This document shows, in pieces, positions 35,532 through 45,785 of a stretch of DNA of 64,000 nt. How positions within the stretch are numbered: position 1 is the stretch's first letter; every line of letters begins with the position of its first letter. The stretch spans positions 62,001 through 126,000 of the forward strand of contig NZ_PEAY01000004.1 of assembly GCF_002807665.1 (NCBI RefSeq), in the 5' to 3' direction. Origin of the DNA: Neoalteromonas facilis. Its GTDB lineage: Bacteria; Pseudomonadota; Gammaproteobacteria; Enterobacterales; Alteromonadaceae. The translations under genes were made by a program, and so were the position numbers. The notes under the pieces are model-generated. The model saw only the letters and a program-made list of their open reading frames with translations, searched no databases and was not told the DNA's origin.

Positions 35532-37508
35532 TTGAGCAGTAAACCCACCTACGAAGAGCTAGCGTTACAGGTTAGTCACTTGCAAAACGAACTGGCTACG
35601 TTAAAAGCCAGTGACAATAGGTATCGTAGCCTGTTTGAACATCTTCTTTACGAAGTTCACGTTTGGGAATTGGTGAGAGATGACAAGGGTACAATCATTA
35701 CCTGGAAGCTAGTTGACGCAAACCCTGCGGCACTGAAAAGTTGGGGGAAGAAATTATCTGATGTTGTGGGTAATACCACAGACGCCATTTTTCCACACGC
35801 TAATGCGACGCAAACCTTTTTACCCATAATCAATAAAATATTTTCAGACAATAAACCACACACGTGGGAAGCATTCTTCCCGGGTACCAATCAGTGGCTG
35901 TATATGATCAGCATACCGTTGGGTGATCTTTTTATTAGCAGCGGTGTTGATATTACGGGTATTAAAGCAACTGAAAAAGAACTCAAAGAAACCGTCATGC
36001 ACTTATCTGAGTCAATAGATGCCGGGCGCGTGGGTTTATGGGACTGGGACTTAACCACTGACAAAGTGACTTTCTCAAAAGAGTGGAAAAAACAGATAGG
36101 ATATGAAGAAGACGAAATCAGCAATGATTTTGAGGAATGGCGTTCGCGCGTGCATCCTGATGATTTCGAAAACGTCATGCGGGAAGTCCAAAACAGTATT
36201 GAGACCCTAAACCGTTCTCATGAAACCTTCTTCCGTTTTAAACATAAAGATGGGTCTTATCGGTGGATCTTGTCCCACGCAACCGTATTTGCCGATGAGC
36301 AAGACAATGCCATACGAATGGTTGGCTCACATATAGACATGACTGAGCGAAAACAAATGGAAGCGGCACTAAATCAGGTCCAAAGGCTTGAAGCTATTGG
36401 CACTTTAGCTGGCGGTGTGGCGCACGATTTCAACAATCTGTTGGCGCCGATTTTGAGTTATGCTCAGTTAGGTAAAAAGCATTTATCCGCAGACTCAGAT
36501 GCCTACGTTTATATGCAAAATATTGAAAATTCGGCAGTGCGAGCCAAGGGTCTAGTTGAAAAGATACTGATGATAAACCGTTCGACTCCGGCTAAGCGCG
36601 AGCCGCTTTTCGTCAGTCAAATGGTGGATGAAGTGTTGACGGTTATTCGAGCTTCAGCGCCGAAAGGCATTTCGGTTCAACGTGAATTTCATTGTGAACG
36701 TTGTGTCATTGAGGCTGACCAATCAGAAATGTATCAATTGCTTCTTAATCTATGTACTAATGCGATCCAAGCGATTTCAGGCCAAGGTCATTTGTTGGTG
36801 AAAGTGGATTTAACTGACGCACTGCCGAATGGATACAAGCGCGCACTTGAGGCCGGACAGCGGGCCGTTCGTTTAAGTATAAGGGATGATGGATGTGGTA
36901 TTGCAGCGCAACACATTAACCATATTTTCGATCCCTTTTTCACGACAAAACAAAAAGACGACCAAAAGGGTACGGGATTAGGGCTATCCATTGTGTCTAG
37001 TGTGATCAAGAAAAATAATGGTTATGTTTCGGTAGATAGCAAGGTAGGGCAAGGGACTACCTTTACAGTGTATTTCCCGTTATGCGAAGACGACTCTTTG
37101 GTAAATTCAGTCAGTGAGTTTTCGCCTAAGCAAGGCGAAAATGAAGAGATCTTATTGATAGACGATGAAGAGATGTTGTGTGATGTGGGCAAGGTCATAT
37201 TAGAAGATCTCGGTTATCAAGTGACAACCTTTACCGATGGCTTAAAAGCGATTGAGCATTTTGCCCAGCATCCACAGCGCTATGCGTTGGTTCTGACCGA
37301 CTATGCTATGCCAAGAATTACTGGCCCCGAATTGGTTGGGCGGATCAAACAGATACGTGCAGATATGCCGATTATGGTGGTGACTGGCTTTTCAGATTTA
37401 GCCACGCCGAAACAAGCGCAGAGCTGGGGCGTTAGGGATGTGATCAGCAAGCCATACGATCTTAATGAGCTCAATTTGAAATTAGGGCAGGTGATTAAGG
37501 GGCGCTAG
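35532..37508 (+). CDS. Hybrid sensor histidine kinase (coiled coil-PAS-PAS-kinase-REC)
   Basis: 658 residues, soluble. A short N-terminal coiled-coil-like helix (about 4-28) precedes two PAS domains (about 30-145 and 155-275; the second ends in a TERKQ PAC motif). The kinase core has the phosphoacceptor in VAHDFNN (His298), LLNLCTNAIQAI, IRDDGCGI and GTGLGLSIV. A receiver (about 530-655) has LIDDEE, the phosphoacceptor in VLTDYAMP and the lysine in ISKPYD. The start is a TTG at 35532; no usable ATG exists for over 100 codons. Its last 14 bases overlap the end of the convergent NtrY-like kinase gene. The core is of the same type as the 11518 kinase. The output partner is unknown. Confidence 0.88.
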   Translation: MSSKPTYEELALQVSHLQNELATLKASDNRYRSLFEHLLYEVHVWELVRDDKGTIITWKLVDANPAALKSWGKKLSDVVGNTTDAIFPHANATQTFLPIINKIFSDNKPHTWEAFFPGTNQWLYMISIPLGDLFISSGVDITGIKATEKELKETVMHLSESIDAGRVGLWDWDLTTDKVTFSKEWKKQIGYEEDEISNDFEEWRSRVHPDDFENVMREVQNSIETLNRSHETFFRFKHKDGSYRWILSHATVFADEQDNAIRMVGSHIDMTERKQMEAALNQVQRLEAIGTLAGGVAHDFNNLLAPILSYAQLGKKHLSADSDAYVYMQNIENSAVRAKGLVEKILMINRSTPAKREPLFVSQMVDEVLTVIRASAPKGISVQREFHCERCVIEADQSEMYQLLLNLCTNAIQAISGQGHLLVKVDLTDALPNGYKRALEAGQRAVRLSIRDDGCGIAAQHINHIFDPFFTTKQKDDQKGTGLGLSIVSSVIKKNNGYVSVDSKVGQGTTFTVYFPLCEDDSLVNSVSEFSPKQGENEEILLIDDEEMLCDVGKVILEDLGYQVTTFTDGLKAIEHFAQHPQRYALVLTDYAMPRITGPELVGRIKQIRADMPIMVVTGFSDLATPKQAQSWGVRDVISKPYDLNELNLKLGQVIKGR

Positions 37509-38796
37509 GCAGTACAATACGCACCTTTATGCCGCCGTCCGATCTATTTTGCAATGATATCGTGCCTTGGTGAGCATCAGTTATTTCTCGAGATAATGCC
37601 AAGCCTAAGCCGCTACCAGAAGCTTTAGTTGAATAGAACGGGATTAGTGCTTGCCCCAATACCTTTTCAGACATGCCTTTGCCCCGATCATGCACTTCTA
37701 TGATGACGTGACTTGCACGTTGTTGAGCGCTAATACTAACGTCATTGGGATCTGAACCTGACTCATGTGCGTTCTTTAATAGGTTGATCAACATTTGCTC
37801 AAGTTGTATTGGATCGGCCTGTAGGTCGATATTGTCTGCAATGTCTCGCTGAAATGGCCATTGTTCCGCCAGTTGATCAAGCAATGCTGTCCAATCAATG
37901 GCATGAAGTTTAGGAGGCGGAAGTTTGGCAAACTTACCATATCCTTGTACGAAGTCTGACAGGTGAGATATACGGTCTTCTATGGTTGCAAAAACGCGCT
38001 CTAAGCGTTCATCTTCATTACGCTGTGTCAGAATGCGGCCACTGTGTAACATCGATGAGATTGGTCCCAATGAATTGTTCAATTCATGACTAATAATCCG
38101 AATTACCTTTTTCCACACGGCTACTTCTTGTCGGCTTAGCTCACGTGTCATTTGCTTTAATATAAACAGCGTATGGGGCTGATTATTTAAATTGAAACGT
38201 CCGGTAGATAAATACCAGGTTTCACTGTCTTGATTCGGCGTGCTTAACGTAAATAAACCTTCGCGACCATGTTCAAATTGAGTTTTAAGCTCAGGCGAAG
38301 ATGACGACGTAATTTCATCTAACTCGCGCCCTTCCAATGCATGACGTTCGCCGAAAAATTGTCTTGCTGCGATGTTACTGAATACAATCTGCTGTTGGCG
38401 GTTGACTAAAAATAATGCTTCTGGAGAGCTTTGAGTAATTTTGTCGAGTAGCAACTCGCGTTGGTATAGCCAGTGTTTTTCCTGGCGCAATTTGTCTGCT
38501 GTTTCGTTATACAAAGTGGATAGATGCATGAATTCATCGTCACCCTCATAGGCTAGCGTGGTTGAGTATTCTCCATCTTTTAGATTCAACAGGCCTGTTT
38601 CTAGTGCATCTAAGCCGTCGGCTAGTTTGCGCGTAAGGTGATACCCTATTAACGCGGATGTAAGCACTACGGCAAAGGTTAGCAGCAGCGCGTGGCCTAA
38701 TGTTAGCGTAGAAAAGTAAAATAGAGGAACACACGCGAGAGTTGACGCAACAATGACGGCTAGGATCAGTTTAGAACGCAGCGATATGCGCATCAA
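37495..38796 (-). CDS. NtrY-like membrane histidine kinase
   Basis: 433 residues. Two N-terminal membrane helices (about 10-28 and 34-52) are separated by almost no periplasmic loop. A HAMP-like linker (about 53-105), a PAS domain (about 115-215) and a kinase core follow, with phosphoacceptor His237 in IISHELNNSLGP, LLKNAHES, VHDRGKGM and GSGLGLALS. With almost nothing outside the membrane it probably senses a membrane or cytoplasmic signal. It overlaps the NtrC-type regulator by four bases (ATGA), the usual cognate pairing, and ends the efflux operon. Its stop lies inside the convergent hybrid kinase gene. Confidence 0.92.
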   Translation of the reverse strand: MMRISLRSKLILAVIVASTLACVPLFYFSTLTLGHALLLTFAVVLTSALIGYHLTRKLADGLDALETGLLNLKDGEYSTTLAYEGDDEFMHLSTLYNETADKLRQEKHWLYQRELLLDKITQSSPEALFLVNRQQQIVFSNIAARQFFGERHALEGRELDEITSSSSPELKTQFEHGREGLFTLSTPNQDSETWYLSTGRFNLNNQPHTLFILKQMTRELSRQEVAVWKKVIRIISHELNNSLGPISSMLHSGRILTQRNEDERLERVFATIEDRISHLSDFVQGYGKFAKLPPPKLHAIDWTALLDQLAEQWPFQRDIADNIDLQADPIQLEQMLINLLKNAHESGSDPNDVSISAQQRASHVIIEVHDRGKGMSEKVLGQALIPFYSTKASGSGLGLALSREITDAHQGTISLQNRSDGGIKVRIVLPSAP

Positions 38797-40124
38797 TATT
38801 CGATCCCGTATTTACTTAGACGTCGGTAAAGCGCTTGTCGGCTTAAGGCAAACTCTCTCGCTACCCGAGCAATTACGCCTTGGTGCTCGCGCATTGCGGC
38901 TTCTAATTCATGTTTTTCAGGTTCTTTTATGGTCTGAGGTTGAGTCGTATGGGTTGGATTTGCCAATGCAAAATCACTCGCTTCGATAACACCGTTTGGC
39001 TTCAATACAGCAACACGCTTACAGGCGTTTTCAAGCTCTCTTACATTGCCCGGCCAGGAATAACTATTGAGAGCCTTCTCGGCACCTAGGCTAATATCTC
39101 TGCCTGGCAGAAAAAACGTGACTAATGGCAGAATATCATCAATACGTTTGGCCAATGGCAGTAGCGGTATCTCTATGACATTTAAGCGGTAGTACAAGTC
39201 TTCTCTGAACTTTCCGGCTTGGATATCGTTGTGCAGGTCGGCATTGGTTGCACTAATCACTCGGACCTGGGTTTTTTGAGTTTTCACTGAGCCTAAACGC
39301 TCAAATTCACCTGTTTGCAACACACGCAGCAATTTGGTTTGGCCCTCATATGAGAGATTGCCGATCTCATCCAAAAATAAAGTGCCGCCATTCGCCGCTT
39401 CAAATCGCCCAATGCGGGTTTTGTTGGCGCCGGTATAAGCGCCCGCTTCAGCTCCAAACAGTTCGGCTTCAATTAAGTCAGCCGGCAGTGCGCCACAATT
39501 GACCTTTACAAAAGGTTTGTCGCGCAGGGGGGACTGCGCATGAATAAGTTCGGCTATTTTTTCTTTACCCGCACCATTGGGGCCTGTGATCAAAACCGAT
39601 ATGTCGGCATTGGCGACTTGCATTGCCATATCAACGGTACGTTGCATTGCGGGACTTTGATAAATAAGTCCCACAGACAGCGCGGCTGATTGGCTATCCA
39701 TATTGGCTTCTTCAAGTCGCTGCAGCTTTTCTTCTTGAAGCTTGGCTTTGCCGACTTCAATTAAATTGGCGACCGTGTTAAGCAGTTTTGTATCATCCCA
39801 GGGTTTGGCAATGTAGTCGGCCGCACCCGCTTTAACGAGTGCGACTGCTTGCTCGAGGTCTGTCCAAGCGGTGATCAAGATAATCGGTAAATGTGGGTTA
39901 ATACCACGCAGTTGTTTGAACAACTCGCGACCTTCTTCGCCGGAGGTTGTGTCTTTAGTAAAGTTCATGTCCTGGATCACCAAACCAATCCGCAACTGAT
40001 CAACGAGTTGAATAGCGTGCTCAGGCGAGGTGGTAGTGATCACATCATAATCGTGTAGCTCTAACACCAACGACAGTGCTTGAAGCACTGCCGGGGTATC
40101 ATCAACGATTAAAATCTTATCCAT
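38793..40124 (-). CDS. NtrC-type sigma-54-dependent response regulator
   Basis: 443 residues from the ATG at 40124, which begins the receiver; a longer open frame upstream runs into the permease gene and has no family support. The receiver has IVDDT and phosphoacceptor Asp52 in VIQDMNF, with a short insertion after it. The AAA+ domain has Walker A GPNGAGKE (181-188), the sigma-54 contact loop GAYTGA (228-233, the tyrosine form of GAFTGA) and FLDEIGNL. A Fis-type helix-turn-helix lies at the C-terminus (VAREFALSRQALYRRLSKYG). It follows two permease genes, so it probably activates its own operon. The two dyads and sigma-54 promoter upstream of the membrane fusion gene (44753-44864) are its likely target. 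Confidence 0.94.
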   Translation of the reverse strand: MDKILIVDDTPAVLQALSLVLELHDYDVITTTSPEHAIQLVDQLRIGLVIQDMNFTKDTTSGEEGRELFKQLRGINPHLPIILITAWTDLEQAVALVKAGAADYIAKPWDDTKLLNTVANLIEVGKAKLQEEKLQRLEEANMDSQSAALSVGLIYQSPAMQRTVDMAMQVANADISVLITGPNGAGKEKIAELIHAQSPLRDKPFVKVNCGALPADLIEAELFGAEAGAYTGANKTRIGRFEAANGGTLFLDEIGNLSYEGQTKLLRVLQTGEFERLGSVKTQKTQVRVISATNADLHNDIQAGKFREDLYYRLNVIEIPLLPLAKRIDDILPLVTFFLPGRDISLGAEKALNSYSWPGNVRELENACKRVAVLKPNGVIEASDFALANPTHTTQPQTIKEPEKHELEAAMREHQGVIARVAREFALSRQALYRRLSKYGIEY

Positions 40125-40141: not shown

Positions 40142-41359
40142 TTAAATAGAGCGCGTCGCAATACTGGGCGAAATATTCGCTGCACGATTCGCCGGTACTA
40201 ATACTGACAACAAACTCAATGCAAATACCGATACCGCCGTGATGCCAACGTACCAATAGTTTAGCGCGGGCACAGAGAACTCTTGCATCATCACGTTACT
40301 GATGTAGACCGCGCCAATGCTGCCGAAAATTAAACCCAGCGCACAAACCAATCCATTTTCAACTAAGAAATAGCGAACGATGGCAGACTTTCTTGCACCC
40401 AGTGCACGACGAGTACCGATTTGTTTTGTGCGTTTACTGATATTGAAAACGGTCATGCCAAAAATTCCTAATGCGGTAATGAGTACCAACACTGTGATAA
40501 TAACAACCAGCATACGTAGCATGAGTAAATCGGCTGCGTTATATTCCTCTTTGTTATCATCCATACCGTCAAGGCTCATGATAACGCGCTCTTCATATTG
40601 TTCTAACAACACGTTCTCTATTTGTGCCATCACTTCGGCGCGTTGTTCTGCTGCTGTGCGAACAACAAAACTTTGATACGAGCCTATCTCAATGTGGGGG
40701 AAAATGGAAACGTGATCAGGTGCTGAGTCCTTTAACCAAGGCCCCATCATTTTCTCTACTACACCGACAATGGTTACAGCGTCATTGCCAACATACATTT
40801 GCTTACCAAGGCCATCGCCATCTGGATAGAGTTCATTTAAGAAGGTTCGCGAGACAATTACCACAGAAGGAATGGCAGCTGGATCATCAGTTAACAAAAC
40901 CTCACTGGGTAAAAAGTTGCGACCTTCCGTTATGGTTAACCCTAATGATTCAACAATACTAGCATCTCCTCCAGTATGAGCACTTCGAATAGAACGATAG
41001 CTTTCATTGTCTCGCTCACTGACCGGAATAATACTGAACCCAGAGGCAGAGCCACTGCCTGACAATGGTACTTCACTGATCATTGAAGCGCTTATTACGC
41101 CAGGAATATTACGCACCGTTTCTTGAGTTTGTAACATCAGTTGAACGACATCGTCCGGTTCACCGAACGTATTCACGGCAAAGCTGAAAATTTGATCTTC
41201 TGGATAGCCGGTTTCTTGCTGCAAGTACTGAGTGCGATCGTGGATGATAAATGCGGCATTGCTGACGATTGCGACGGTAATGGCTATTTGCAGCAGCAAT
41301 AATATGGCACCCACTTTTGAGCGTAATAATGCGCTGACAATCGGTTTGATTTCTAACAT
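40142..41359 (-). CDS. MacB-like ABC permease (FtsX family), second copy
   Basis: 405 residues with one N-terminal membrane helix, a large periplasmic MacB-type domain (about 45-275) and three C-terminal helices. The FtsX signature IGTRRALGARKSAIVRYFLVENGL lies at the first of those loops. MacB-type permeases do not move substrate through a channel; they drive a mechanical pump that pushes substrate from the periplasm through an outer-membrane TolC-type channel. It is 10 bases downstream of the first permease, to which it is only distantly similar; the two presumably form a heterodimer. No TolC gene is in the window. Confidence 0.88.
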   Translation of the reverse strand: MLEIKPIVSALLRSKVGAILLLLQIAITVAIVSNAAFIIHDRTQYLQQETGYPEDQIFSFAVNTFGEPDDVVQLMLQTQETVRNIPGVISASMISEVPLSGSGSASGFSIIPVSERDNESYRSIRSAHTGGDASIVESLGLTITEGRNFLPSEVLLTDDPAAIPSVVIVSRTFLNELYPDGDGLGKQMYVGNDAVTIVGVVEKMMGPWLKDSAPDHVSIFPHIEIGSYQSFVVRTAAEQRAEVMAQIENVLLEQYEERVIMSLDGMDDNKEEYNAADLLMLRMLVVIITVLVLITALGIFGMTVFNISKRTKQIGTRRALGARKSAIVRYFLVENGLVCALGLIFGSIGAVYISNVMMQEFSVPALNYWYVGITAVSVFALSLLSVLVPANRAANISPSIATRSI

Positions 41360-41369
41360 GGTTACACTC

Positions 41370-42683
41370 CTATTGGGTTTTAAGGCAAATGGCTGGATTG
41401 GTTCTACAGACTAACCAAGCGGGGTAAAGGCCTGCGATAACACAAGCGCTAATGGCGATTATTGGGGCGGCAAATAGCATACTTAAATCCATGGTAGCCA
41501 GCGCGCTGTAGTAGTCATAAGTAGCGCGGACGCCCCATAAACCAAGCTGTGCCAGACCAATGCCAATAACACCGCCAATTAATCCAAGCAGTGACACTTC
41601 GACCAAATGCTGGAAGAAGATTTGGCGTTTGCTAGCGCCTAGTGCGCGTCTTACACCAACTTCTGGCACTCGCTTAAGGAACTTGCCCAACAGCAAACCC
41701 AGAATATTCGCCAGACAAACGGCTAAGAACATAAAGCTCAAGCCCACGAGCACTCGATTGTCTTCTGTGACGACTTCGTTGTAATCCAACCATTCGCGCA
41801 AGTTCTTGAGACCGAAGTAAACAGTTGTTCGTTCGAAGCGCCCTTTAGTGGCTTCTTCTGCAAGGTAGTTGTGCAGAAATTCACGGTATTGGGCAACATC
41901 TTGTGGTGTATCGAGCTGCACCCAAAATTGCATCCAGAATTGTTCTGAGCGGAGCTTATCTTGAAAAGTTTGAACTTCTTCAAACTTCCAGCCATTGGTA
42001 TTGCCCCAGTTGCCGATTTCAAGAGGCTCGATCAATGTGACCGGGATCATGGCTTTTTCAGGCTCGTTAAATGCGCCATTATTGACATCGTAATATTTGA
42101 TATGAAAATCAAAATTTTGGAATACCCCAACAACTCTAAAAGCGCGTTTGTCAAAATACACCAACTTGCCAACCGAATTTTCACCACCAAACAGTTTATC
42201 GTTTAATTCTTTATTAATAACGGTAACTAATTCTGCTTTGTCTTCTTGCGTTTGCGTCCAAGCGCCGCCGTATAAGAACTCAATGTCGAACATGCTGAAA
42301 AAGTCATTGCTAGTCACCCGGATACCTTCGATAAAGGGCTTAATTTTGTCATCATTTAAATGCACGCTATATCCAGTGCGAACGGAAGGCGCCTTCAATC
42401 CCGGTGTATCGGCTCGGTATAAAGCCATACTGTCTTTATACGTCATTTGCAGAGGCAGGTTATCTTCTGTCCAGGTGCCATTGGATTCATCCATAGTGGC
42501 CAATTGCGGTTGAAACAACTTGTCACTTTTGTGTGGAAGTGGGTCCATGGCCATCATGTGGTAAACCGATAGACTGGTCATGGTAATGCCAATGCCAACT
42601 GCGATGGCGACGACCATTAAAGCGGTTACAAGCGGAGTACGCTTGAAGCTTCGCCAGCTTAAATCTATGTAATGTAAAAACAT
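41370..42683 (-). CDS. MacB-like ABC permease (FtsX family), first copy
   Basis: 437 residues from the ATG at 42683, which has AGGAG six bases upstream; earlier in-frame codons lie inside the ATPase gene. The protein has an N-terminal helix (LVTALMVVAIAVGIGITM region, about 21-40), a periplasmic domain with a large insertion, and three C-terminal helices with the FtsX motif VPEVGVRRALGASKRQIFFQHL. It is one base after the ATPase stop and ten before the second permease. It belongs to the same export complex as the ATPase at 42685 and the fusion protein at 43416. The substrate is unknown; peptides, lipids or antibiotics are typical of the family. Confidence 0.9.
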   Translation of the reverse strand: MFLHYIDLSWRSFKRTPLVTALMVVAIAVGIGITMTSLSVYHMMAMDPLPHKSDKLFQPQLATMDESNGTWTEDNLPLQMTYKDSMALYRADTPGLKAPSVRTGYSVHLNDDKIKPFIEGIRVTSNDFFSMFDIEFLYGGAWTQTQEDKAELVTVINKELNDKLFGGENSVGKLVYFDKRAFRVVGVFQNFDFHIKYYDVNNGAFNEPEKAMIPVTLIEPLEIGNWGNTNGWKFEEVQTFQDKLRSEQFWMQFWVQLDTPQDVAQYREFLHNYLAEEATKGRFERTTVYFGLKNLREWLDYNEVVTEDNRVLVGLSFMFLAVCLANILGLLLGKFLKRVPEVGVRRALGASKRQIFFQHLVEVSLLGLIGGVIGIGLAQLGLWGVRATYDYYSALATMDLSMLFAAPIIAISACVIAGLYPAWLVCRTNPAICLKTQ

Positions 42684-42684
42684 A

Positions 42685-43401
42685 TTAAACTCCTGCCACC
42701 ATTGGCTGGTTCTCGCTTTCTTGCTTCTGATACAAAGTAAAATCTGCGATTTGGCCATCGACAACTTGAATATTGCGCGGCGCACGTCGTGCCAGCTCCG
42801 GATCGTGCGTAACCATTACAATTGTTGCGCCATTGCGATTGATGGTTTCCAGCAGCTCCATAACCTGACGCGCCATCAAGCTATCAAGGTTTCCTGTGGG
42901 CTCGTCGGCGAGTAAAAAACGCGGTTCGCCGGCAAGGGCTCTAGCAATAGCAACGCGTTGTTGTTGACCGCCAGACAATTGCTGAGGCAAGTGTTTTATT
43001 CTGCTAGCAAGACCTACCTGCTCTAAACATTCCATCACGCGACGCTTACGTTCGGCCGCCTTAATCCCGCGATAACGCAGTGGCACTTCAACATTTTCAA
43101 ACAAGTTCAGATCAGGGATCAGGTTGAAACCCTGAAAGATAAAGCCAATTTTTTGGTTACGTAAATCTGCCCGCTGATTATCTGAAAGCTTGCCAATATC
43201 GACGCCATCTAAAGTGTATTGTCCTGCAGTGAATGATTCCAACATACCCGCGATGTTCAAAAATGTCGTTTTACCAGAACCTGAAGGGCCGGTAACGGCG
43301 ATGAATTCACCTTCGTCTACTTGCAAATCGAAGTCACGAAGCGCGTGGGTTTGTACTTTCTCGGTCTGATAAACCTTGCTGATGTTTTTCATGGTTAGCA
43401 T
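42685..43401 (-). CDS. ABC transporter ATPase, MacB/LolD type
   Basis: 238 residues, a stand-alone nucleotide-binding subunit. It has Walker A GPSGSGKT (about 39-46), the Q-loop in FIFQGFNLIPDLN, the ABC signature LSGGQQQR, Walker B FLLADEPTGNLDS and the H-loop in VMVTHD. The IFQGFNLIP and DEPTGNLDS forms are typical of the lipoprotein/macrolide export subfamily. The ATG at 43401 has AAGGA eight bases upstream. It lies between the membrane fusion protein and the two permeases. Confidence 0.95.
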   Translation of the reverse strand: MLTMKNISKVYQTEKVQTHALRDFDLQVDEGEFIAVTGPSGSGKTTFLNIAGMLESFTAGQYTLDGVDIGKLSDNQRADLRNQKIGFIFQGFNLIPDLNLFENVEVPLRYRGIKAAERKRRVMECLEQVGLASRIKHLPQQLSGGQQQRVAIARALAGEPRFLLADEPTGNLDSLMARQVMELLETINRNGATIVMVTHDPELARRAPRNIQVVDGQIADFTLYQKQESENQPMVAGV

Positions 43402-43415
43402 TTGGATAGTCCTTT

Positions 43416-44675
43416 TTATTGGCGAAGCAGGATGGTGTCTGCATCTTCAAATTGTTGATAAGTAGAAATAATGATTTGGTCGCTTTCTTGAAGCCCTTCT
43501 AGCACTTCAACATCGCGCATGCTGTAGGCGCCAAGACGGATGTCGACTTTGTGGGCCAAGTCTCCTTCAACTTTGTAAGCGATATAGCCACCTGCTTGGG
43601 TAAAGCTGCCGCGGCGTACTTTCAATACATTCGCCTTGTTTTCCAGCAGCACACGCGCAGTAACTTGTTGATTCTGGCGCAGCTGAGATATGTCTTCCGT
43701 ACGAAGACGTACACGTGTGGTAATTTCACGCTGTTTGATTTCAGGCGAAACGGAAGCCACTACCCCTTCTATACGCTGGTTGCCGATGCGTATTTCTACT
43801 GGCAACCCAATGTTTAACTCATTGGCATAACTCTCGGCGACTTGGATTTCGGCCTCATAAGCGCTGAGATCGACCAATGTCATAAGCGGTGTATTTTTGT
43901 CGACTAAGGCTTTTGGCTGAACTAGAAGATTCCCGACAACACCGTCTACACTTGCGCGGATGGTTAATTCGTCGAGTTTACGTTTGAGCTCTTCTACAAC
44001 CAACGCTTGTCGTTGCACCGTGCTGCGTGATGACTCTAATTCAAACGCAAGTGTGTCTTTGGCTAACGACACTTCCTCTTGTGCGTGTTTGAAGTTCAAT
44101 TTTGCGCGCGCAAGATCGTCAATGGCTTCCTCATGGTCGATTTGACTGATCAGATTGTTTTTGATGCTCTGATTAGCCCGGCGACTTTCACGTTCTGCCG
44201 CTTGTAGGTCAACTTCAGCAAGATCTAGGCGTTTGGTTAACTCGAGCGTTTGACGGCGGGCATCCAGCTCTTGGCGCGCAAGCTCGCCTTCGAGACGCTG
44301 CATTTCGGAGTTTTCTTGCTTCAGTTGGTTGGCCAATTCAGGGCTTTCAACTTGGGCGACCACTTCGCCAACGGTAACCTGATCACCGGGTTTGACATTG
44401 AGTTCAACAAACCCTTGTTGAGGCGCGTATAGTTGTGGTGCGTTGGCAGCCACGACTCGTCCGTTTGCCACGATATCACGGACTAGGTCCCCACGTTCTA
44501 ACTGTGCGATTTGCAAGGTACCGCGGTCGACAGATTTCTGCGCACCACTGGTATTCAATAGCGCGTTAGCTGCAAAGCCGACAGTCAGTAAAGCGATGCC
44601 AGCGAATATCGCAAATCGCTTCACCCGGCCATTGTCTTTAATGATGACATCTTGGCTGCTGGTATCTCTAATCAC
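43416..44675 (-). CDS. HlyD-family membrane fusion protein of ABC efflux pump
   Basis: 419 residues from the GTG at 44675, which has AGGAG seven bases upstream; a longer reading starting at 44729 lies in the leader and shows no family match. One membrane helix near residue 20-40 anchors it. The periplasmic part has a lipoyl half (QQGFVELNVKPGDQVTVGEVVAQVESPELANQL region), a long coiled coil (about 115-215) and the second lipoyl half with ASVDGVVGNLLVQPKALV. Beta-barrel and membrane-proximal domains follow. It is first in the operon and bridges the permeases to an outer membrane channel. A good sigma-54 promoter and two regulator dyads lie upstream. Confidence 0.92.
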   Translation of the reverse strand: MIRDTSSQDVIIKDNGRVKRFAIFAGIALLTVGFAANALLNTSGAQKSVDRGTLQIAQLERGDLVRDIVANGRVVAANAPQLYAPQQGFVELNVKPGDQVTVGEVVAQVESPELANQLKQENSEMQRLEGELARQELDARRQTLELTKRLDLAEVDLQAAERESRRANQSIKNNLISQIDHEEAIDDLARAKLNFKHAQEEVSLAKDTLAFELESSRSTVQRQALVVEELKRKLDELTIRASVDGVVGNLLVQPKALVDKNTPLMTLVDLSAYEAEIQVAESYANELNIGLPVEIRIGNQRIEGVVASVSPEIKQREITTRVRLRTEDISQLRQNQQVTARVLLENKANVLKVRRGSFTQAGGYIAYKVEGDLAHKVDIRLGAYSMRDVEVLEGLQESDQIIISTYQQFEDADTILLRQ

Positions 44676-44752
44676 GGCAATTCTCCTGTTAACAATCGTT
44701 GTGGTGCGATGTACCTGTACGGCGGACATCTGCGCACATTGTATTAACAGTT

Positions 44753-44768
44753 AGCGATTAGCATGCCA
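44753..44768 (-). promoter_or_regulatory. Sigma-54 (-24/-12) promoter of the efflux operon
   Basis: The minus strand reads TGGCATG-CTAA-TCGCT, against the consensus TGGCAYR-N4-TTGCW. The GG and GC are ten bases apart as required, and only one core base of the -12 half differs. Transcription would start near 44742, giving a leader of about 67 bases to the GTG at 44675. It fits the NtrC-type regulator in the same operon. Confidence 0.85.
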
Positions 44769-44823
44769 ATCTATAAGGCATTGATAAACAAGTGTTATTT
44801 TTGCAACTGGCCGGTTAGAGAAG

Positions 44824-44835
44824 TGTCCGCGGACA
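44824..44835. promoter_or_regulatory. Enhancer dyad A (TGTCCG-CGGACA)
   Basis: TGTCCGCGGACA is a perfect 12-base palindrome centred about 88 bases before the predicted sigma-54 transcription start, the usual distance for an NtrC-type enhancer. Its half-sites reappear in dyad B, 20 bases upstream. Confidence 0.75.
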
Positions 44836-44864
44836 GTAAAAGTGTCCGGGCGGACACTTTTACT
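44835..44864. promoter_or_regulatory. Enhancer dyad B (TGTCCG-GG-CGGACA, 30-base perfect palindrome)
   Basis: 14-base arms AGTAAAAGTGTCCG and CGGACACTTTTACT flank a central GG. The core TGTCCG/CGGACA is the same as in dyad A, and the centres are 20 bases apart, two helical turns, so two regulator dimers would lie on one face. It is centred about 108 bases before the predicted start. It lies ten bases after the stop of the M14 gene and might also form a hairpin there. Confidence 0.75.
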
Positions 44865-44873
44865 GGCGGATTA

Positions 44874-45785
44874 TCAAATAGATTGGAGATATTTCAGACC
44901 ACCAGAAATGGCGGCTATTTGGGCGTCAATACATTGCTGTGGGGTAGCATTCGGACTATCAGGGTATACTTCTGTTGTGGTGACATAAGGGGCATCGGTA
45001 AAGCCACCACACAGGAATAGCGCACGTTTGTCATAGTGAATAACACCTTTTTGCTCAACATCAGCGCCTATGATTTTGCCATCTTCATCTGCTGGAGCGA
45101 TATGCGTGACCTTCTCGACCTCAGCAATTACAGCGGTTTGGAAATCAGGTTGAGAGCGGCTGGTATCGTCAACCGTGTAAAATCCATCCGGTATGTTCCA
45201 AATATCATGAGTTGTCCCATCTCGTGCAGCGAGCGCTGGACGGAACTCCGAATTATCTGTATCAGTTGTTTCATGTAGGTCGAAATGAGCCAGTAGTGTT
45301 ACCCCGCTATTTTTAACATACTGCATAGCCAGCGCTGCCTCAGGGGCAGGACTGTCAGGATAAAATGAACGGTTTGGATCAATCGCTAGCGGGTTCCAAC
45401 GGTTAACGGTTTCATACCCCCACGGACTTAGGCACGGTAAAACAATGAAGTTGAAATCGTTTTCAAAGGTGTGTGCAGCGTTTGCTAGAAAGCCCAATGC
45501 ACCTTGTACGCCACTGGTTTCGTAACCGTGTACACCGCCGGTCACGAGTATTACGGGTTTGTCAGTTGACCAATTGCGGCTTTTTAGTGCGAATAAGGGA
45601 AATCGTTCTGTGTCATATGGCAATGCGCCATATTGTTCCACTTCAAAATCATCGCGCAAGGCTTCGATTTTAGGTAGTACTTCTTCAGCGTAGGCGCGCT
45701 TTACCACTTGTTGTGACAGCCATTGCGCTTTCTCTTGTTCACCCCAGGGAGAACCCGGTGTGCCAATTGGATATTCTTGCTCCAC
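44874..45785 (-). CDS. Zinc carboxypeptidase-like protein (M14/succinylglutamate desuccinylase-like)
   Basis: 303 residues, no signal peptide. The zinc-binding HxxE appears as GVHGYET (His86, Glu89) and the third ligand as the histidine of HFDLHE (about 171). A DPNRSF segment (about 136-141) matches the substrate-carboxylate arginine site of the M14 family. The chain is close to the usual M14 fold length, but the exact substrate (peptide, N-acyl amino acid or other) cannot be chosen. The gene precedes the efflux operon on the same strand. Its stop is ten bases from the enhancer palindrome, so its transcript probably stops near there. Confidence 0.85.
   Translation of the reverse strand: MEQEYPIGTPGSPWGEQEKAQWLSQQVVKRAYAEEVLPKIEALRDDFEVEQYGALPYDTERFPLFALKSRNWSTDKPVILVTGGVHGYETSGVQGALGFLANAAHTFENDFNFIVLPCLSPWGYETVNRWNPLAIDPNRSFYPDSPAPEAALAMQYVKNSGVTLLAHFDLHETTDTDNSEFRPALAARDGTTHDIWNIPDGFYTVDDTSRSQPDFQTAVIAEVEKVTHIAPADEDGKIIGADVEQKGVIHYDKRALFLCGGFTDAPYVTTTEVYPDSPNATPQQCIDAQIAAISGGLKYLQSI

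Follow-up and report, generated by a model that had tools for sequence, protein, structure and literature searches.

Organization of the operon

The window, the whole 64,000-nucleotide stretch of Neoalteromonas facilis DNA analysed here, carries on its minus strand an operon with the gene order adaptor, ATPase, two permeases, sigma-54 response regulator (GAYTGA) and histidine kinase. An initial annotation made from the sequence had described an operon ending in an NtrC-type regulator with the GAYTGA form of the loop plus a kinase, and this gene order is borne out by domain searches. The first gene (43416..44675) encodes a periplasmic adaptor of the HlyD/MacA type (PF13437, TIGR01730), whose conserved N-terminus, xIxDTSxQD, backs the GTG at 44675 as its start. 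It is followed on the same strand by an ABC ATPase of the MacB/LolD/DarD type (42685..43401; PF00005; NF038007 with E 2.4e-81, below the cut-off of that model) and by two FtsX/MacB-type permeases, the first (41370..42683) with PF12704 and PF02687 and the second (40142..41359) with PF02687 and PF12704. All parts of a MacB-type exporter, namely MacB_PCD and FtsX domains, an ABC ATPase and an HlyD-type adaptor, are present; no outer-membrane duct was found by domain search among the six genes of the operon.

MacB is the nearest solved relative of both permeases. Permease 1 matches positions 7-401 of TIGR03434, the N half of the model, and permease 2 positions 412-801, the C half, both below its cut-off. 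These matches to the two halves, along with the fused permease of 806-826 aa found in 7 of 10 complete sister operons, support the view, already put forward in the initial annotation, that the two permeases probably form a heterodimer.

The fifth gene (38793..40124, minus strand; PF00072, PF00158, PF02954) encodes a response regulator of the NtrC type, with a receiver, a sigma-54 activation AAA+ domain whose GAFTGA-type loop reads GAYTGA, and a Fis-type HTH with the sequence SRQALYRR. Its best solved match is the NtrC-family structure 4l4u. Since it scores below the cut-off of all NCBIfam models among the 25 best listed (the best being TIGR01818, 353.6 versus 558.6), it is none of the regulators named by them (NtrC, NtrX, ZraR, AtoC and the PEP-CTERM regulator). 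Most letters of an unusual receiver motif, QDMNFTKDTTSGEEG, are common to 13 of 15 aligned regulators, that of the window included. The regulators of G013 (L089) and G019 (L078) have GAYSGA for GAYTGA and are without the DTTSGEEG receiver motif; the TGTCCG sites of both are kept. The sixth gene (37495..38796, minus strand; PF02518) encodes a histidine kinase with two adjacent membrane helices, a weak PAS, a HisKA (HELNN) and an HATPase domain, of which the HATPase is clear and the HisKA and PAS fall below cut-off; HAMP is weak in 4 of 5 members of kinase group A3 and absent from the window kinase.

Control region upstream of the adaptor gene

The sigma-54 promoter element TGGCATGCTAATCGCT (-24/-12; 44753..44768, minus strand) reads TGGCATG-N4-TCGCT and fits the TGGCAYR-N4-TTGCW-like form, including an intact GG-N10-GC spacing. 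By a simple weighted consensus score, typed from recall and not a trained matrix, 44768-44753 is the best sigma-54-like site on either strand of the 64 kb window, in which one site scores at least 16.1 of 17.3 and five score at least 15.0; in 100 dinucleotide shuffles of the upstream 350 bp no site scored as high, and, since only the highest-scoring site of each stretch is kept, some weak sites may have arisen by chance. The -12 spacing predicts a transcription start at 44742..44743 (minus strand), which would give a leader of ~67 bases up to the adaptor GTG at 44675, with a ribosome-binding site, AGGAG (44683..44687, minus strand), just before it. The leader itself contains a single TGTCCG half-site (44723..44728, minus strand); stray half-sites are seen in the leader of relative G002 too. 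One rpoN gene was found in the genome in a search with the sigma-54 DNA-binding domain.

Two putative enhancer dyads lie upstream of the promoter. Dyad 1, TGTCCGCGGACA (44824..44835), has no spacer and is centred at 44829.5, about -88, and dyad 2, TGTCCGGGCGGACA (44843..44856), has a 2 bp spacer and is centred at 44849.5, about -108, so that the centres are 20 bp apart. The initial annotation had described a -24/-12 element with GG-N10-GC spacing about 67 bases before the membrane-fusion start and two TGTCCG palindromes near -88 and -108, 20 bases apart; direct reading of the window agrees with it in the sequence, position and spacing of each. The 12-mer of dyad 1 has its sole exact copy in its own genome here, and the same 12-mer stands before many homologous pump operons.

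The pattern TGTCCG-N0-9-CGGACA has two matches in the whole genome (3,914,585 bases), both of them here, and the control pattern read backwards likewise has two. About two dyads per genome are therefore to be expected by chance; that both fall within 33 bp before one operon is not. The 12-mer with up to two mismatches occurs at 62 genome sites, against 102 for the reversed control, which indicates no wider set of sites in the genome, and a regulon beyond the operon was rejected, the sites not exceeding the control genome-wide. As read from the sequence, the regulator is one with this single predicted target in its genome. One further copy of the 12-mer with a single mismatch, TGTCCGTGGACA, is listed for this genome, on another contig (G000:C17:327682-327693; L190).

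Distribution of the sites among relatives

An adaptor match was found in 29 of 59 relative genomes, and the 34 operons with closer adaptors were taken, 15 with regulator and kinase adjacent and 19 without an adjacent regulator. TGTCCG half-sites are present in all 15 regulator-adjacent pump operons, as a perfect dyad in 14 and as five direct CGGACA copies in G048. A clear sigma-54 site, with a best score reached by at most 1 of 100 shuffles, is found in 13 of the 15; the remaining two, G021 and G020a, have shuffle p values of 0.14 and 0.19. Among 17 pump operons without a regulator, none has a TGTCCG half-site and none a sigma-54 site at p <0.05 (lowest 0.09). The last two of the 34 operons come from one fragmented genome, G031, and both fit the pattern: one, interrupted by the end of its contig, has the dyad, and the other carries two half-sites, with a family regulator 13 kb further on.

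Counted by genome, sites are present in all 16 with a regulator of at least 166 bits and absent from the 12 that have such a pump alone; where both kinds of pump operon occur together (G000, G002, G015 and G020), the sites are found only at the regulator-bearing one. The dyads that had been singled out in the window are thus present at orthologous loci having the regulator and absent from the 17 operons without one.

The paralogous regulator-free pump operons G000:C17:188835-190142 (L080), L079, L085, L086 and L088 are without TGTCCG and without a clear sigma-54 site. Some of these share, by eye, a TTTAAACCTTTT- or TCGACTTA-like block before the adaptor, perhaps reflecting other control. In another regulator-free pump operon, L093 (G007), the adaptor gene is in two pieces.

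A wider named set was obtained by a receiver-alignment scan of named genomes, of which the best 80 of at least 574 relatives were taken; it includes Alteromonas, Glaciecola, Pseudoalteromonas, Shewanella, Thalassotalea, Ferrimonas, Microbulbifer, Roseateles and Rubrivivax. An adaptor lies upstream of the regulator in 72 of these best 80, and 71 are readable. Within these 71 (from the best 80 of at least 574), every locus has a TGG-type -24 element as its best site and one or more dyads with no more than a single mismatch, and none has a further TGTCCG-N0-4-CGGACA dyad in the retrieved stretches. The -12 element is more variable in the same 71 of the best 80, with GG-N10-GC kept in 37 and GT, GA or GG in place of GC in 34, mostly Pseudoalteromonas; a shuffle p of 0.05 is reached by 59 and of 0.1 by 67. 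In Pseudoalteromonas (L106-L136 and others) the -12 is mostly TGGTA or TCGTA, not TTGCA, at a fixed place, which may represent a variant element or decay.

In a sample of the class, the regulator was found in at least 8 of 369 genomes; the class and order searches scored at most 11 and at most 16 candidates per genome, so regulator counts are lower bounds. TGTCCG half-sites precede the pump in all seven class-sample loci from distant gammaproteobacteria, besides the window's own; among them, the half-sites of L179 and L180 form just one everted pair and their -12 is degenerate, and L177 is without a perfect dyad. The 12-mer itself is present in 59 of 369 class genomes, most of which do not have the regulator, and its reversed control is found about as often. 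Of the 59 relatives, 29 contain the looser N0-9 dyad, and in most of them the reversed control is at least as numerous. The dyad alone was accordingly rejected as a marker: outside the operons the 12-mer is at chance level across the class, and only position counts.

Burkholderiales provide loci in which pump and regulator are apart. Eight named loci (best 80 of at least 574) are without an adaptor: L146 is a truncated gammaproteobacterial contig, L161, from Burkholderiales, is cut by its contig, and the other six, all Burkholderiales, have regulator and kinase apart from any pump. In each of these six genomes one family regulator and one adaptor match were found, the regulator lying on another contig than the pump in three and 16, 27 and 41 kb from it, in opposite orientation, in the other three. 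Before all six pumps (from the best 80 of at least 574) we find TGTCCGCGGACA and a sigma-54 site scoring 16.5-17.3, with no regulator or kinase motif in the 12-13 kb around them, and no dyad was found in the stretches around the six unlinked regulators. As unlinked pumps keep the sites and unlinked regulators are without dyads, the sites are part of the pump promoter; regulation of the regulator by itself appears to be a frequent but dispensable extra.

Recognition helix, half-site and dyad geometry

Receiver profiles retrieved a second tier of regulators, many of them in pump operons of the same build with other dyads at their promoters. Among 137 non-redundant loci with a readable helix, GTCCG is the commonest half-site in 108 of 110 with a Q helix; S-F/Y helices are accompanied most often by TCCCA (10 of 15; GTTCG in 3 and GTCCG in 2), and with S/N/A-L/I helices GTTCG is commonest in 11 of 12. 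The Q loci L260 and L195 have a single GTCCG only. Left out of these counts were 13 of 153 upstream stretches more than 80% identical to another, 3 of 140 without a readable helix (L123, L182/L164 and L261), 12 of 72 second-tier loci without an adaptor upstream of the regulator, and 4 of 77 places. The half-site classes emerged from 13 loci, and where they finally divide was decided with later loci in view, so that no part of the comparison is a blind test, the later loci included (alone, these give 20 of 21 for Q, 6 of 9 for S-F/Y and 9 of 10 for S/N/A-L/I).

On a tree built without the DNA-binding domain from 45 of 122 trimmable regulators (31 of 108 Q, 14 of 14 others; 13 of 27 non-Q regulators, not trimmable, are left out), the helix class changes four times and the motif five times. 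One switch, to S-L (L259, L262 and L265), falls inside the Q group (support 95) and is accompanied by a change of site from TGTCCG to TGTTCG. With two independent pairs only, too few for significance, the tree is suggestive and not decisive. Overall, these comparisons of sequences suggest that the half-site follows the recognition helix of the regulator across sister operons.

Among the sister pump operons (L194-L201, L204, L205 and L227-L263), which have fused or separate permeases and mostly a sigma-54-like site, dyads such as CCCATTTTTGGG, CGTTCATTAACGAACG and TGTTCGCGAACA match other recognition helices. The window's own genome contains a second, sister regulator, with DSAL in its helix, in a pump operon (G000:C19:118043-118420; L252) that has a sigma-54-like site of 15.8 and is without GTCCG; it is likely to be an insulated second module. 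For the sister regulators of L237, L238, L244, L248, L249, L254 and L206, which carry LTKSSLYRR or LTKSSMYRR, no adaptor was found upstream, and they may control something else. In one Alteromonas (L123 / L224) the regulator frame stops before the HTH and the dyads remain, which may reflect a sequencing error or recent decay.

Of the 110 non-redundant Q-helix loci, 92 have a perfect dyad upstream of the promoter. In these 92 loci, the distances from dyad centre to -24 cluster near 49, 60, 71 and 81 bp (R = 0.80 at 10.75 bp), and of 40 spacings between two perfect dyads, 22 are 20.5 bp and 8 are 43 bp. The window fits both, with ~61 bp from dyad to promoter and 20 bp from dyad to dyad. This suggests that the dyads keep helical steps, although the loci include related rows and some weak promoter calls, so that the values do not amount to a formal test.

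Kinase and sensing

NtrY has a large periplasmic domain between its two membrane helices. Hydropathy places two membrane helices side by side, joined by little or no loop, in the kinases of this family that were inspected (15 in an alignment; 28 of 90 viewed), the loop of the L163 kinase, one of the 28 viewed, being ~12 residues. The window kinase, designated NtrY-like in the initial annotation, is not a full NtrY, having no periplasmic domain. For the same reason, the part of the initial annotation in which the membrane kinase itself senses a stress or cargo is unsupported; of the closed circuit proposed there, the arm from regulator to pump is supported. That the regulator also raises itself follows from the operon order, but this is not general, as the six Burkholderiales regulators lie elsewhere without a near dyad.

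In addition to control by the operon's own regulator, sensing may proceed through the pump, with the kinase reading the state of the permease pair by analogy with Bce modules. We regard this addition as possible but rather doubtful. It is favoured by the two adjacent membrane helices of the kinases, by the presence of permeases and kinase mostly in one operon, and by the relationship of MacB-type permeases to BceB together with the requirement of BceAB for sensing by BceS, as described in the available parts of PMC5985334 and PMC10314905; no separate sensor or cargo gene is evident among the neighbours of 70 loci. On the other hand, kinase and pump are apart in the six Burkholderiales, which makes a fixed complex less likely, the weak PAS might be a cytoplasmic sensor, and no BceS-named NCBIfam model is among the 25 best listed for the kinase.

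Mechanism and alternatives

Our comparisons make it very probable that this stretch serves to control a self-contained pump module, whose own regulator activates the sigma-54 pump promoter. That the sites track the regulator, persist when pump and regulator are unlinked and are phased, and that the half-site matches the helix, all argue for this reading. In such a module, sigma-54 RNA polymerase would be held closed at 44768-44753, while the regulator encoded by the fifth gene would be phosphorylated by the kinase encoded by the sixth. Once phosphorylated, the regulator would occupy both TGTCCG dyads in dimeric form, on the same helical face, and assemble, and its GAYTGA loop would open the promoter, allowing adaptor, ATPase and the heterodimeric MacB/FtsX-type permease to be made. 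The same transcript would yield more regulator and kinase, and the pump would export an envelope-active compound or peptide.

Alternatively, another regulator could bind the dyads while the operon's own regulator acts elsewhere. Binding of the dyads by the regulator is a prediction, TGTCCG is a short sequence and chance copies of the 12-mer exist elsewhere, all of which would be compatible with such an arrangement; we nevertheless consider it quite improbable, given that the sites come and go with the regulator, stay when the regulator moves and change with the recognition helix. The dyads themselves have a negligible likelihood of being chance palindromes: although the reversed control leads one to expect about two per genome, both lie at one promoter, and they recur at homologous promoters in gamma- and betaproteobacteria.

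A different arrangement, in which a sigma-70 promoter drives the operon and the regulator represses or fine-tunes it at the dyads, would account for the half-site in the leader (44723-44728) and for the regulator-free homologous pump operons, which must use another promoter. It also draws on the degenerate -12 of 34 of 71 named loci (best 80 of at least 574), with GT, GA or GG for GC, which speaks against a clean promoter everywhere. The GAYTGA loop and the AAA+ domain are intact, however, as is the -24/-12 element of the window, and the helical phasing at 50-100 bp is enhancer-like, leaving a very slim chance for repression or fine-tuning and favouring activation by the operon's own regulator.

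Relation to known systems

Like NtrC, ZraR and AtoC, the regulator combines a receiver, an AAA+ domain with a GAFTGA-type loop and a Fis-type HTH, and as in those systems dyads lie upstream of a -24/-12 promoter and the partner kinase is encoded in the operon. It differs from them in its MacB-type pump target, in having, by sequence, one target per genome, and in its own half-site, TGTCCG. The pump shares adaptor, ATPase and MacB/FtsX-type permeases with MacAB-TolC, other exporters composed of adaptor and MacB, TIGR03434 and DarBCD; it differs in that the ATPase is separate, two different permeases are present and the regulator pair is in the operon, and the operon proteins are below the cut-offs of MacA, MacB, DarB, DarC, DarD and TIGR03434. 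MacAB is described as controlled by PhoPQ in E. coli and Salmonella in the available part of PMC5985334.

Predicted sigma-54 promoters have been found enriched at COG0577 FtsX-like permeases in gammaproteobacteria, Opitutia and Bacteroidia, termed first evidence by the authors in the available part of that report (PMC12316311, 2025), and the accessible sections of a study of Xylella describe a predicted sigma-54 site before the HlyD-family/RND operon XF2093-94 (PMC3224663, 2010). In contrast to the present operon, no activator, enhancer site, operon structure or specificity is named for those pumps in the available parts of the two reports. In the open-access literature, subscription papers aside, we found no paper on this regulator, the TGTCCG site or the operon. 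The parts are of known types; the wiring, in which an NtrC-type regulator of the operon's own, TGTCCG dyads and a sigma-54 pump promoter are combined, is hardly described. Our analysis provides a named regulator, a DNA site and a single predicted target for a link between sigma-54 promoters and FtsX-type permeases that in the literature covered had been only statistical, and the sister operons form a natural series from which the choice of half-site by a Fis-type helix may be read.

Bce modules (BceAB-BceRS) have an OmpR-type regulator. They resemble the present operon in combining an FtsX/MacB-related permease unit with a kinase without an extracellular sensor domain, and differ from its sigma-54 NtrC-type regulator and Gram-negative adaptor; signalling by the pump would be by analogy. 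It is conceivable, if unlikely, that the family is a Gram-negative sigma-54 counterpart of Bce modules, in which the heterodimeric MacB/FtsX pump is its own sensor, acting with a single-target regulator. Such a family would have diversified by two to three helix residues and the half-site (Q with TGTCCG, S with F/Y with TCCCA, and S/N/A with L/I with GTTCG), giving insulated copies per genome without cross-talk. The operon makes testable the idea that Gram-negative pumps act as sensors for their own kinases.

The surroundings of the pump were compared in 70 loci by single-linkage clustering of the neighbours, considering the 12 largest clusters. A cargo gene beside the operon was rejected, the most widely shared neighbour cluster being present in 14 loci, mainly from Pseudoalteromonas. 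The gene just upstream in the window (44874-45785, minus strand), whose end precedes the dyads, is weakly M14 / AstE-type peptidase-like, and of the 70 loci only two, L094 and L095, have a relative of it beside the pump.
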